Positions 2,854 through 9,874 of a stretch of 34,821 bases of DNA are shown piece after piece. The notes beneath the pieces were generated by a model that searched no databases, had not been told where the DNA came from, and saw only the letters and a program-made list of their open reading frames with translations. Where the stretch lies: the NCBI GenBank assembly GCA_031257255.1, contig JAIROZ010000151.1, positions 1 to 34,821 on the forward strand. The letters run 5' to 3'. Numbering within the stretch: position 1 is the stretch's first letter; every line of letters begins with the position of its first letter. Source of the DNA: Spirochaetaceae bacterium (GTDB lineage Bacteria > Spirochaetota > Spirochaetia > Treponematales > Breznakiellaceae). Position numbers and translations under genes: made by a program.

Positions 2854-4350
2854 ATGGATTATAGTCATTCTATCATGTTTGTGGTCGGATTCATTGTCTA
2901 CATAGGGATAATGATACTCATCGGAACGCTCGCTTCGCGTGGAAAAAGCGATGGCAAAGATTATCTTACAGGCGGCGCTAAATTGCCGCTGTTTTTAATT
3001 TTTGCGACAATGGGCGCAACCTTCATTGGAACAGGCAGCGCTCTGGGCGCTACTGCCAACGGTTTCCGGCAAGGCTGGTACGGTTCGGGTTACGGACTGG
3101 GCGCGGCTCTGGGGCTTTTTTGGCTTGTCTGGATGATACACAAGACAAAGCCGCGTTCAAAAGGCTTTATCACTCTGGCGGAAGAGGCGCAGTACCTCTT
3201 TAACGGCAGCCGTCAGATGAAGGTCATCATGTCTTTTATGATGTTTTTTGTGGAAATAGCCTGGCTCGGCAACCACATAAACGGCGGCGGCACTTACCTC
3301 TCCTACATAACCGGAGTAAACCCCGTGCTGGCGCGGCTCATCTGTGTGGCGGGCTTTGGTATCTATGTTATCATAGGCGGCTATCTCGCGGTTGTATGGA
3401 CAGACTTAATTCAACTTGCCATCATCGTTGTAGGCTTTATAGGCATAGCGCTTATTGCCGTTCCCACAGCGGGCGGCTGGGCAGAAATTACCAATACGCT
3501 TACGGCAGCCGGAAAAGCGGGCAACCTCACCTTCTACGGCATAGGTTCTACCACAACAATGGGAATTATTGCGCTCATCTGGGGTATAGTCATCCCCGGA
3601 CTCGGTACGCCTACCTACAGAATGAGGATTTACACCGCGAAGGATGACAAGACGGCAAGCCGCGCTTTTATTACAACTGCGGTGCTGCTTCTGGCGTTCA
3701 GTCTTATACCGGCGCTTATCGGCATGTCGGCTTTTGCCATTGCTACAAAGAACGGCGCGGAATCCGTGCTCGGCAACCCGAATTTTGCTTTCGCCTATGT
3801 GGCGACTATCGTTTTAGGTCCGGTTTTGGGGCTTTTATTTATGATAGCGGGGCTTTCGGCAACTCTCTCATCGGGCGATTCGGATGCCATAGCCGGCGTA
3901 ACGATTCTTATTCAGGACATTTATCCGGTTTTTGCTAAAAAACCGCTTGCCCCGGATAAAATTAAGAGTTGGTCGCGTTTGGGGCTTCTGGTAACTTTTG
4001 CGCTCGCATTTTTTGCCACGCTATTTGCCACAGATGTTATGAACTACATACTGAATGTTATAGGCTCGGTTATTCCGGGTGTATCTGTGGCGATGTTCCT
4101 TGGGGCGGTCTGGAAACGGGCAACCTGGCAGGGCGGCGTTGCCTCGCTTATAACAGGCGCGGTTTTCGGCATTCTCTATTTGGGCGTAGCGCCTTTCCAG
4201 AGTTACATAAAAGGCATATTTACAGCGCCGGCGATACCTTCGACCATCATTACGCTTGTGGTTTGCGTGATAGTATCGCTTTTAACGCCTCCGGGCACAC
4301 TCACCGAAGATGAAAGGCTTGCGGCTGTGGAAAAATCCAGAATGGCGTAA
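2854..4350 (+). CDS. Sodium:solute symporter (SSS family)
   Basis: This 498-residue integral membrane protein has about 13 hydrophobic segments, typical of the SSSF/LeuT-fold Na+ symporters. Family hallmarks are the early DYLTGGAKLPLFLIFATMGATFIGTGSALG region (read as two pieces, about residues 36-65), the GGYLAVVWTDLIQ segment (about 176-188), and AGLSATLSSGDSDAIAG (about 332-348), the Na+-site helix with its serines. TAGGAGG lies 5 nt before the ATG. It is transcribed divergently from the wzz-like gene and ends in its own terminator, so it is monocistronic. The substrate cannot be read from the sequence. The nearby LarA-like gene might hint at a hydroxy or organic acid, but that is only proximity. 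Confidence 0.88.
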   Translation: MDYSHSIMFVVGFIVYIGIMILIGTLASRGKSDGKDYLTGGAKLPLFLIFATMGATFIGTGSALGATANGFRQGWYGSGYGLGAALGLFWLVWMIHKTKPRSKGFITLAEEAQYLFNGSRQMKVIMSFMMFFVEIAWLGNHINGGGTYLSYITGVNPVLARLICVAGFGIYVIIGGYLAVVWTDLIQLAIIVVGFIGIALIAVPTAGGWAEITNTLTAAGKAGNLTFYGIGSTTTMGIIALIWGIVIPGLGTPTYRMRIYTAKDDKTASRAFITTAVLLLAFSLIPALIGMSAFAIATKNGAESVLGNPNFAFAYVATIVLGPVLGLLFMIAGLSATLSSGDSDAIAGVTILIQDIYPVFAKKPLAPDKIKSWSRLGLLVTFALAFFATLFATDVMNYILNVIGSVIPGVSVAMFLGAVWKRATWQGGVASLITGAVFGILYLGVAPFQSYIKGIFTAPAIPSTIITLVVCVIVSLLTPPGTLTEDERLAAVEKSRMA

Positions 4351-6336: not shown

Positions 6337-7425
6337 ATGAACTATCATTTTCGGGGCGAGGAAACTATCGAGTCCCCCGCGCTGGTGTACTATCGGGACA
6401 TCATCGAAGAAAATACCGCTAAGGCTATTGCTATGGCAGGCGGCGCCGAGCGTCTGTGGACGCATATAAAAACCCATAAGACTGCCGCCCTTGTGCGTAT
6501 GCAGATGAACCGGGGCATTACCCGTTTTAAGTGCGCTACTTTAATGGAGGCGGAAACCTGCGCCCGCGAGGAGGCTCCACATGTCCTACTTGCCTACCCG
6601 CTTATTGGTCCTGCCATCAACCGCTTTGTCCGTCTGCGGGAGCGGTACCGCAGCACCCTATTCTGGGCTATCGGAGATAATTTGGGGCAACTGGAATTGC
6701 TGGGAAAGGCATTAGCCAAAAGCCAAACGCCGGTAAACCTTCTGGCGGATATCAACGCGGGTATGGACAGGACAGGCGTTCCGCTGGAAAACCTAGAAGA
6801 CTTCTGCCTTGCCGCCGCGAAGATAACGGGGCTCATTTTTAAGGGCTTTCATTGTTATGACGGGCATTTGGGCATAAAAGACCTTGCGGAGCGGAAGGCG
6901 GCGGCGGGAAGCATCGCAAAGCGCCTATTTGCCGTCAAAGTATCCCTCGAAAAAAAAGGCATAGAGATACCCGTCATCGTGCTGGGGGGCAGCCCCACCT
7001 TCCCCTGCCACATTGATATGCCGGAAGTCTACCTATCTCCGGGAACGGTTTTTGTCTACGACAACGGGTACCAGACAAAATTCCCCGACTTAGACTTTGT
7101 TCCGGGCGCGGCGGTAATGAGCAGAGTGATAAGCCATCCGGCGGCGGGGCTTTTTACTTTGGATACCGGCTACAAAGCCATCGCCTCCGACCAGACAGAC
7201 AGGGGCATTATTCACGGATTGCCGCAGGCAAAACCGGTCGCGCAGAGCGAGGAACATTGGGTCTGGCGGATAGAGGACAGGGAACCGCCCCCTATCGGAG
7301 CGGTGCTATACATTATCCCTACCCACATCTGCCCCACTTCGGCGCTCTACCCCGGCATATATGTGGTTAGCGGTGGAGAACTGGTCAACTACTGGGAAGT
7401 AAGCGCCCGCAACCGGCTTCCGTGA
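6337..7425 (+). CDS. Fold-III PLP enzyme, D-serine dehydratase / D-threonine aldolase-like
   Basis: This 362-residue enzyme has an alanine-racemase-type TIM barrel followed by a D-serine-dehydratase-like C-terminal domain. HIKTHKT (about 43-49) is the PLP-lysine motif of D-threonine aldolases and eukaryotic-type D-serine dehydratases. H330-I-C332 near the end matches the His-x-Cys metal site of those families. LLADINAGMDRTGV (about 134-147) and GFHCYDGHLG (about 170-179) are typical barrel motifs. The enzyme should act on a D-hydroxy-amino acid, by dehydration through an enamine or by retro-aldol cleavage; sequence alone does not decide which. A TTG overlapping the RidA stop could extend it by 7 residues, but the ATG is preferred. 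The next gene follows after 13 nt. Confidence 0.82.
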   Translation: MNYHFRGEETIESPALVYYRDIIEENTAKAIAMAGGAERLWTHIKTHKTAALVRMQMNRGITRFKCATLMEAETCAREEAPHVLLAYPLIGPAINRFVRLRERYRSTLFWAIGDNLGQLELLGKALAKSQTPVNLLADINAGMDRTGVPLENLEDFCLAAAKITGLIFKGFHCYDGHLGIKDLAERKAAAGSIAKRLFAVKVSLEKKGIEIPVIVLGGSPTFPCHIDMPEVYLSPGTVFVYDNGYQTKFPDLDFVPGAAVMSRVISHPAAGLFTLDTGYKAIASDQTDRGIIHGLPQAKPVAQSEEHWVWRIEDREPPPIGAVLYIIPTHICPTSALYPGIYVVSGGELVNYWEVSARNRLP

Positions 7426-7438
7426 TTACCGGTATTTT

Positions 7439-9874
7439 ATGGCGTTTGTTCAATTTACTAATGTATCGGTCTCTTTTGGAGAACGCGATGTACTAAAAAA
7501 TGTGAGTTTACGCCTCAAGTCCGGCGACAAAGCGGCGCTCTGCGGAGCAAACGGGGCGGGAAAATCAACCCTGCTAAAAGTAATAGCCGGTCTTATCGAG
7601 CCTGACACCGGCGACCGCGCCCTTGAACGCGGCTGCCGCCTCGCCTATCTGCCTCAGGAAGGAGTGGACAGTTTAGGGGACAGGGGACAGGGGGTAGTGG
7701 GTAGTAGAGGGGACAGGGGACAGGGGACAGGGGGTAGTTTAGGGGACAGTGGACAGTGGGTAGTGGGTAGTAGAGTGGGTAGTGAACAGTGGACAGTGGA
7801 CAGCAGCCGTTCAGGCAGTAAACAAAGCGCTAACGCAGATAACAATTTTGAAACCGATATATCAGACAAAAACCTACCCACTACTCACTACTCACCACCC
7901 ACTAAAACCGATATATCAGACAAAAATCTGTCCACTGTCCACTCGCCACTGTCCACTGTCCACTCGCCACTGTCCACTATCCTTGACTCCGTCTTCGATG
8001 AATGGCGAGTTTTGGAAGAACGGGTTGAGGCATTGCGGGAAGAACTTGGCGCCGCAGGCGCGGCTACTGTAGGCGCGGCTACTGTAGGCGCGGCATCTGG
8101 GGACGCGGATATATCCACGAACACATCTACAGATACATCCGGCGCAAACATAAAGACAGACGCGCTGCTTGCCGAGCATGATGCTCTCTTTGAAAAACTG
8201 GAAAATTCCGGCTATTTGCGCCGCGAAAAAGAAATCTACTTTGTGGCAAAGGGGCTCGGCTTTAAGCCGGAGGACTTTTCCCGTTCCCTCGATGAATTTT
8301 CGGGCGGCTGGCAGATGCGCGCCGGGCTTGCCAAGACATTGCTCCGCAAGCCGGACATCCTCATTCTGGATGAGCCGACCAACTACCTAGACCTCGAAGC
8401 GCGTACCTGGCTTCTTTCGTACCTCAAGGCATTTTCCGGGGCGCTTCTCATCGTCTCTCACGACCGGTACTTCCTCGACTCGCTTGTCGGGGCGGTTTAC
8501 GAACTCTTTTGCGGCATCCTAAAACGCTATACCGGCAACTATAGCACCTACGAAAAAACACGGGAGGCGGAATTGGCAAGCCTCTTAGACCGTTACCGCG
8601 CTCAGCAGGCGGAAATTGAAAAACGGACGCGCCTTTATGAGCGCTTTCACGCAAAGGCGCGGAAGGCATCTTTTGCGCATGAGCAGTTATCAAAAATCGA
8701 AAAGATAGAAAAAATCGAACTGCCTCCGCACTTGCAAAAAATTCACTTTAGTTTTCCGCAAGTTACCCATAATGCCCGCGTTGCCTTTACACTGAAGGAT
8801 GTTGCCAAATCGTACGGCGATTTCCGCGTTATAGAAAAATTCGACTTGACCCTTGACGCGGGCGAGCGCCTTGTCTGCGTGGGACCAAACGGGGCGGGAA
8901 AGTCTACACTGCTGCGCATAATTGCCGGTGTTGATGTAAGATTTTCCGGCAAGGTGCGCTATGGCACGGATGTGAGCGCCGGTTATTTTTCGCAGGATGC
9001 CGCCGAAAAATTGCGCGGGCGGGCAAGCATACTCGATTATCTAAAGGAGAGAGTACGCAGCTATCCGGCAGGGTATCAGCATACACCGGCGCGTCTGCGC
9101 GATATGCTCGGCGCGTTTCTTTTTAGAGGAGACGATGTAGAAAAACCGCTCGATGTCCTCTCCGGCGGCGAAAAGACGCGCCTTGCCTTGCTTGAACTTC
9201 TGCTGCAGCCGCATAACCTTCTCATTCTTGACGAACCAACCAACCACCTCGACATTTATTCCAAAGACATACTCCTCGATGCCCTCAAAAAATGGAAAGG
9301 CTCCTGCGTTTTTGTCTCCCACGACCGCGACTTTATGGACGCGCTTTCTACCAAAACCCTAGAACTGCGCCCTGGCGAAGCGCCGCGCCTCTTCTATGGA
9401 AACTACAGGTACTATGTGGAGAAGAAGGATTTTTTAGTGGGTAGTGAACAGTGGGTAGTGGGTAGTGTCCGTTCAGGTAGTAAACAAAGCGCTAACGCAG
9501 ATAACTTCGTTAGCACAGAAATATCAGACAAAAACCTACCCACTACTCACTACTCACCACCCACTAAAACCGATATATCAGACAAAAATCTGTCCACTGT
9601 CCACTCGCCACTGTCCACTGCTCAAGCCCGCGAACAGAAAAAACAGGCGCAGGCGGCGGAGCGGAGGCGGCAGCGGGACGAGGCGGCGCTGCTGGAGGCG
9701 CTAGAAACGCTGGAATACGAGAAGGCGGCGCTGGAGGCGGAACTGGCTCAGCCGGAAGTTTACGCCAATGGCGAAAAGTCCCGCGCCGTTCAAAAACAGA
9801 TTGAAGCGCTTGCCGCCGAAATTGCCGCCAAAGAAGCGGCATGGGAAAGGCTAGGAGAACAGCGCGGCTTTTAG
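7439..9874 (+). CDS. ABC-F ATPase (Uup-like layout) with repeat-derived insertions
   Basis: At 811 residues this soluble twin-ATPase is well above the usual 530-650 for ABC-F proteins, which act on ribosomes. NBD1 has Walker A GANGAGKST (36-44), signature FSGGWQMR (287-294), Walker B ILILDEPTN (307-315) and SHDR (340-343). NBD2 has GPNGAGKST (482-490), LSGGEKTR (574-581), LLILDEPTNHLD (594-605) and SHDR (627-630). The linker carries the basic helical PtIM-type region (about 370-430). A C-terminal coiled coil (about 728-811) resembles Uup. Extra residues come from a G/S-rich and T/S/P-rich segment at about 79-182, just after the Q-loop, an Ala/Thr-rich stretch (204-240), and a second segment at about 667-727. 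Both ATP sites look intact, so the protein could still function. It is the last gene of the RidA unit. Confidence 0.88.
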   Translation: MAFVQFTNVSVSFGERDVLKNVSLRLKSGDKAALCGANGAGKSTLLKVIAGLIEPDTGDRALERGCRLAYLPQEGVDSLGDRGQGVVGSRGDRGQGTGGSLGDSGQWVVGSRVGSEQWTVDSSRSGSKQSANADNNFETDISDKNLPTTHYSPPTKTDISDKNLSTVHSPLSTVHSPLSTILDSVFDEWRVLEERVEALREELGAAGAATVGAATVGAASGDADISTNTSTDTSGANIKTDALLAEHDALFEKLENSGYLRREKEIYFVAKGLGFKPEDFSRSLDEFSGGWQMRAGLAKTLLRKPDILILDEPTNYLDLEARTWLLSYLKAFSGALLIVSHDRYFLDSLVGAVYELFCGILKRYTGNYSTYEKTREAELASLLDRYRAQQAEIEKRTRLYERFHAKARKASFAHEQLSKIEKIEKIELPPHLQKIHFSFPQVTHNARVAFTLKDVAKSYGDFRVIEKFDLTLDAGERLVCVGPNGAGKSTLLRIIAGVDVRFSGKVRYGTDVSAGYFSQDAAEKLRGRASILDYLKERVRSYPAGYQHTPARLRDMLGAFLFRGDDVEKPLDVLSGGEKTRLALLELLLQPHNLLILDEPTNHLDIYSKDILLDALKKWKGSCVFVSHDRDFMDALSTKTLELRPGEAPRLFYGNYRYYVEKKDFLVGSEQWVVGSVRSGSKQSANADNFVSTEISDKNLPTTHYSPPTKTDISDKNLSTVHSPLSTAQAREQKKQAQAAERRRQRDEAALLEALETLEYEKAALEAELAQPEVYANGEKSRAVQKQIEALAAEIAAKEAAWERLGEQRGF
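7668..7985 (+). repeat. Palindromic low-complexity repeat inserted in frame, copy 1
   Basis: The left half is an array of GGGGACAG and GTGGGTAGT units (7668-7806). Next comes a 37-nt core (7807-7843). The right half holds complementary units (CTACCCACT, CTGTCCACT). A 100-nt stretch at 7859-7958 is identical to 9521-9620 in the same gene. A 20-nt unit (ACCGATATATCAGACAAAAA) occurs twice inside. The insertion keeps the ABC-F reading frame without a stop. Confidence 0.9.
8057..8095 (+). repeat. 15-nt tandem repeat in the ABC-F gene
   Basis: GGCGCGGCTACTGTA occurs twice in tandem (8057-8071, 8072-8086) and is followed by a partial third unit. It encodes GAATV repeats in the Ala/Thr-rich loop of NBD1. 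Being a multiple of three, copy-number change would keep the frame. Confidence 0.85.
9436..9620 (+). repeat. Palindromic low-complexity repeat inserted in frame, copy 2
   Basis: This copy lies between NBD2 and the C-terminal coiled coil. The left arm (9436-9465) pairs with 9536-9565 at 26 of 30 positions, a large potential hairpin. The 37-nt core (9469-9505) matches copy 1 with one difference. The 100 nt at 9521-9620 are identical to 7859-7958. It is read in the same frame as copy 1, so both encode the same peptide, including ISDKNLPTTHYSPPTK. Confidence 0.9.

Follow-up and report, generated by a model that had tools for sequence, protein, structure and literature searches.

A short palindromic element sits in frame at two sites of an ABC-F ATPase gene and is dispersed through the rest of the genome to which this gene belongs. 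The gene lies in the window (the whole 34,821-nt stretch analyzed, contig G000:C185) of a 2.17-Mb Treponema-like MAG from a termite gut, which comprises 210 contigs and is 71% complete. The phenomenon is not confined to the ABC-F gene, where it was noticed first: at least 21 ORFs carry copies. We consider it likely that these copies belong to a translation-tolerant, selfish palindromic element, which is mostly intergenic in some members of the family and is represented here by a gene-invading sub-family.

The host gene (positions 7439-9874, forward strand) encodes an ABC-F protein of 811 aa with YheS, YbiT, and EttA as its closest solved relatives, YheS being the nearest by sequence among solved structures. 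A reading of this DNA made without database searches (hereafter, the sequence-only reading) had described two similar segments, with G-rich units on the left and complementary C-rich units on the right, in one reading frame without stops, and had noted that the catalytic motifs were kept. All of this holds. Positions 7774-7958 and 9436-9620 are identical at 168 of 185 sites, and the 100 shared bases form one exact run (7859-7958 = 9521-9620), besides which shorter stretches of 27 and 19 nt are identical in the two copies. Each copy has inverted-repeat arms that are 34 nt long and 82%-88% complementary; the gene is a single open frame spanning both inserts, and the ABC-F motifs are intact in translation. 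The description of the segments stood as to the repeats themselves and was refined in its layout, to a 130-nt unit followed by a half-core and a C-rich tail, with an extra left array in copy 1. The unit of copy 1 (7774-7903) consists of a left arm (7774-7803), a core (7804-7873), and a right arm (7874-7903). It is preceded by an expanded G-rich heptamer array of AGGGGAC/AGTGGGT units, in frame (7663-7773), and followed by a tail (7904-7982) made of the half-core AAAACCGATATATCAGACAAAAAT (7904-7927) and a C-rich heptamer array (7928-7982). The unit of copy 2 (9436-9565; left arm 9436-9465, core 9466-9535, right arm 9536-9565) has a tail at 9566-9620 (half-core 9566-9589, C-rich heptamer array 9590-9620), which matches the start of the copy 1 tail exactly, inside the 100-nt match. 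The same gene also contains an in-frame perfect 15-nt tandem repeat, AGGCGCGGCTACTGT, at 8056-8094, and the exact 15-nt unit had no other occurrence in the stretches fetched from its own genome. An Rfam search of the window returned a tRNA as the sole match.

The 130-nt repeat unit is thus composed of a G-rich array of ∼30 nt, a hairpin core of ∼70 nt, and a reverse-complement array of ∼30 nt. The left arm is built from (AGTGGAC)n heptamers, with AGTGGGT units also present, and the ends AGTGG...CCACT form terminal inverted repeats with arms of about 30-34 nt. When folded against shuffled sequences, the ABC-F copies gave z-scores of -2.7 (copy 1) and -6.8 (copy 2). Nine of 10 copies folded better than the shuffle mean (z from -2.6 to -8.2), the copy in GltX being the exception (z +0.9). 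The consensus RNA structure of a 30-copy alignment has only eight pairs and negligible covariation, probably because the heptamer arms slide in register, so that the hairpin claim rests on single-copy folds. Left arms of the AGTGGGT type (e.g., L131 319-370) read as (GGGTAGT)n and fit a G-quadruplex pattern, repeated GGG-N4. We also observed a second heptamer family, (GTTGCCG)n, in frame as VAGCRLPVAGCRLP or PATGNQQPATGN and partly fused to half-elements (L095 ∼7150-7200, L092 ∼13700, L112 ∼2745).

The dispersal of the element could be confirmed by BLASTN, in which copy 1 matched the bin 106 times, in many cases through heptamer arrays alone, and by a model search of the entire bin, which gave 109 matches with both strands counted. 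A profile scan of the 352 kb fetched around matches in the window's own genome identified 52 core-bearing copies: 24 inside ORFs, 27 without a long ORF, and one in gatB. We examined 10 non-ORF loci; about half were clearly between different genes (e.g., alanine racemase/Sir2, Bmp/OmpA-like, BPD_transp/SBP_bac_3), and the rest could not be assigned. These numbers bear on whether the heptamer arrays might simply have grown in place by slippage, as local minisatellites with no dispersed element. The arms are indeed heptamer arrays that vary in length between copies, and inserts in mutS and mutL themselves could favor slippage. Slippage accounts for arm length only, however, whereas a nonrepetitive core of ∼70 nt is common to the 52 loci and the 130-nt length recurs among copies, so we regard local growth as very unlikely.

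The relatives of the window's bin, which are termite-gut Treponema MAGs, differ widely in element content. The congener G001 appears to be Cf509_bin4, as its ABC-F protein region is identical to that of L025 in the alignment. It has 23 core-bearing copies in the stretches fetched, nearly all of them between genes, and the congener G002, 94% complete, has none. G154 and G178, two genomes from a different genus of the same family, have related copies, mostly outside long ORFs; most relatives have no or few copies, and the weaker matches that were read from other members of the order are mainly heptamer arrays. The sole in-frame copy of G001 lies between an upstream ORF and the N terminus of V-ATPase subunit A, bridging the two in one open frame (L134 2527-3378, G001:C77).

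The 24 in-ORF copies of the window's own genome sit in 21 ORFs, and their strand and frame are identical in all 24. This shared frame encodes roughly VDSGQWTVDSVRSGSKPSTNADNTVSTDIPDKNLPTTHYPLPT, a peptide of ∼44 residues with no Pfam family match. By Pfam, the hosts are PreP/M16, a glycosyltransferase, Mfd (two copies), two FtsX permeases, a MiaB-like radical-SAM protein, an SNF2 helicase, a GlnRS-like fragment, MetH (two copies), a transglutaminase-fold protein, GltX, aconitase, MutS, MutL, an NTP transferase, a Mur ligase, an RND transporter, CbiM, the ABC-F protein (two copies), and ClpC-like and ClpB-like AAA proteins. Conserved domains are present in the host ORFs and in several cases flank the insert on both sides or are interrupted by it; two of the ORFs are cut off by the end of their contig. 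The insert of the transglutaminase-fold protein is located before a likely signal peptide, and may therefore precede the true start. GltX is encoded by a single copy in the bin, yet this copy bears an insert, and 20 other bin matches to its sequence center on the inserted peptide. The predicted host-insert junction peptides include LLARSSVNSGQGTVDSVR (GltX) and DISDKNLPTTHYSPPTK. The copies in mutS and mutL are at L099 2389-2518 and L100 513-634, respectively (G000:C16 and C80), and slippage of the heptamer arrays might rise if repair were impaired by them. The locus L103 (2001-4763) is a 921-aa ORF that joins a CNNM domain to a Mur ligase, the orthologous ORFs having 870 aa in G001 and 890 aa in G002.

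The canonical frame is open in 18 of 18 scored ORF copies, and the other five frames are open in 0-7 of 18. Since ORF copies are recognized by being open, this test is partly circular. Nonetheless, the phase in which stops are avoided is the phase predicted, and gatB is the sole recognized gene broken by a copy, neither of which is circular. When G-rich unit 2 ends in T (position 14), an in-frame TAG results; such a T occurs in 0/24 ORF copies versus 18/46 others (p = 1.4e-4), a contrast that shares the partial circularity, and at positions 7 and 21 (the ends of units 1 and 3) ORF copies do not differ from the others in T. At position 28, the end of unit 4, T is also rarer in ORF copies (4/25 versus 23/48, p = 0.01), a bias not explained by stop avoidance because T makes no in-frame stop there. 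Codon constraint in the core is weak, with dN/dS of 0.66 versus 1.34 and 0.76 in control frames. In the gatB copy (L211, G000:C5, element at 3051-3171), a TGA in the canonical frame parts GatB_N from GatB_Yqey; this split, together with the GlnRS-like fragment in the bin, suggests that GatCAB may be dispensable. The same TGA, as well as the long stable hairpin of most copies, would fit an intervening sequence acting at the RNA level, with the hairpin cut from the mRNA or skipped by the ribosome and the peptide never made. Such removal needs no open frame, yet 24 of the 25 recognized in-gene copies of this genome have one, and the avoidance of stops is confined to a single phase. We thus find removal at the RNA level very improbable, and suggest that the inserts are translated in the cell.

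The structure of one product was predicted in an AlphaFold2 model of the ABC-F protein, computed with 34 relatives. Values of pLDDT below 50 are found in exactly residues 80-172 and 676-725, which correspond to the two inserts, and pLDDT is high across most of the nucleotide-binding domains. Both inserts are therefore predicted to be disordered. Many insertion sites in the other host genes are also loops of variable length, as seen in alignments with three relatives (G001, G002, and G003).

The element is neither unique to the ABC-F gene nor present in its distant orthologues, as it would be if it had been an old feature of this gene: we aligned 35 ABC-F orthologues (a set that includes two duplicates and a fragment that stops short of site 2), and none has either insert. 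The orthologues of the other host genes in G001, G002, and G003 are likewise insert-free, where found and comparable. The sequence-only reading had proposed recent copying of a mobile or recombining palindrome; dispersal and insert-free orthologues support this, but neither ABC-F copy is simply a duplicate of the other. Across the 130-nt unit, copy 2 shares 93% identity with the copy in the PreP/M16 peptidase gene and 87% with copy 1. Overall, the in-gene copies are 58%-93% identical to one another at the nucleotide level, indicating that many of the insertions are not very recent. An artifact of assembly or binning, conceivable for a MAG in 210 contigs given that repeats can mislead assemblers, would have to account for junctions that keep the frame in 21 ORFs spread over many contigs, a large number of them between matching halves of conserved proteins, and for related elements in another bin and another genus; we deem it extremely unlikely. 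Another explanation is that a functional peptide, for instance a disordered tether or an interaction tag, was recruited as a linker under positive selection in many proteins. The same peptide is found across the 21 ORFs, and there is mild conservation at codon positions 1 and 2 (0.25 and 0.24, versus 0.33 at position 3). However, the hosts are unrelated (repair proteins, an aminoacyl-tRNA synthetase, transporters, proteases), the copies vary to the extent just given, orthologues do without them, and about half of the copies lie outside ORFs. Recruitment is thus unlikely, and we favor a selfish element whose insertions would be close to neutral.

In a FastTree phylogeny built from 73 copies, the in-ORF label undergoes nine changes, versus a mean of 20.4 and a minimum of 14 in 500 shuffles. 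The in-gene copies therefore form a loose sub-family. The intergenic copies of G001 have more symmetric cores. Our reading is that the intergenic palindrome came first and that a translatable sub-family then entered genes in the lineage of the window's genome. We suggest the following course of events. A short nonautonomous palindrome would reside mainly in the intergenic regions of certain members of this family of spirochetes, and a sub-family with one reliably stop-free frame would have spread into coding genes in the present lineage. Copying may have been the work of a transposase acting in trans, or may have proceeded through recombination or replication mediated by the hairpin, with disruptive insertions subsequently lost. 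The surviving copies would be those in the tolerated strand and frame, at loops that accept extra residues, and they would be translated as an unstructured peptide of ∼44 residues within a working host protein. Tentatively, one may go further and imagine an element adapted to coding sequence, through its stop-free frame, stop-avoiding arms, and disordered product, that multiplies in essential genes by an undescribed mechanism; we are inclined to doubt this, while considering it a possibility.

We searched for mobilizers that might account for the proposed active movement. REP/BIME palindromes associate with RAYT (Y1) transposases; the 71%-complete bin has no match to PF01797, for which the control matched in five genomes, and none to the reverse transcriptase family RVT_1. 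DDE_Tnp_1 has two matches in this incomplete bin, at loci without heptamers, and gave no candidate mobilizer. PF05635 (S23/IVP, the 23S rRNA intervening sequence) matched nowhere, and neither did its control. No target-site duplication was evident by eye, the array ends being ambiguous and the relatives too diverged for exact empty sites, and searches for a carrier in phages, plasmids, and viral contigs yielded no candidate.

The discussion of palindromic elements within genes has so far centered on Rickettsia and Wolbachia. These are obligate intracellular bacteria, so that relaxed selection is an easy explanation there. The same outcome is now seen in a gut spirochete of another phylum, for about half of the copies, with gltX, mutS, and mfd among the genes affected. 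G001, with almost only intergenic copies, and the copy-free congener provide a natural before/after comparison, by which the entry of an element into coding sequence, the tolerance of a sudden insert of ∼44 residues, and any seeding of new protein loops become testable.

None of the papers searched reports such an element in spirochetes. Among known systems, the REP/BIME are also dispersed palindromes; the spirochete element is larger, lies in frame in genes, and has no Y1_Tnp match in its bin. Bacterial MITEs (ERIC, Correia/NEMIS, RUP; PMC2229807) are similarly small, hairpin-forming, and nonautonomous in appearance, with some ORFs fused to genes, but for the spirochete element neither a target-site duplication nor a parent transposon was found, and about half of its copies are coding. 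The PARCEL repeats (PMC2996958) share palindromic coding sequence dispersed by horizontal routes; they are amphipathic repeat units, many in membrane proteins and lipoproteins, whereas the spirochete copies are single insertions in housekeeping enzymes. The coding palindromic repeats of Wolbachia and Methanocaldococcus jannaschii, cited in PMC2996958, are in-frame palindromes in protein genes as well; the organisms are different, and the likeness is one of description. The closest resemblance in kind is to the RPEs of Rickettsia (Ogata 2000, 2002). As described in PMC2229807, PMC10969869, and PMC3767692, RPEs are palindromes of 100-150 nt with a long hairpin (the first survey recorded lengths of 105-146 nt and copies in 19 reading frames; PMC2229807, PMC10969869), and the product of a Rickettsia gmk with an RPE is translated and active (PMC2229807). 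Like the spirochete element, they are dispersed between and within genes, in frame in unrelated housekeeping genes, and encode a shared peptide. The arms of the spirochete element, unlike those of RPEs, are inverted heptamer arrays, and the host phylum is unrelated; also, genes with RPE-1, RPE-2, or RPE-3 are reported to carry the same RPE group at similar sites in rickettsial orthologues (PMC3767692), whereas the spirochete congeners lack the inserts. By analogy, the spirochete element appears to be a functional counterpart of RPEs, a likeness of kind that implies no claim of descent.
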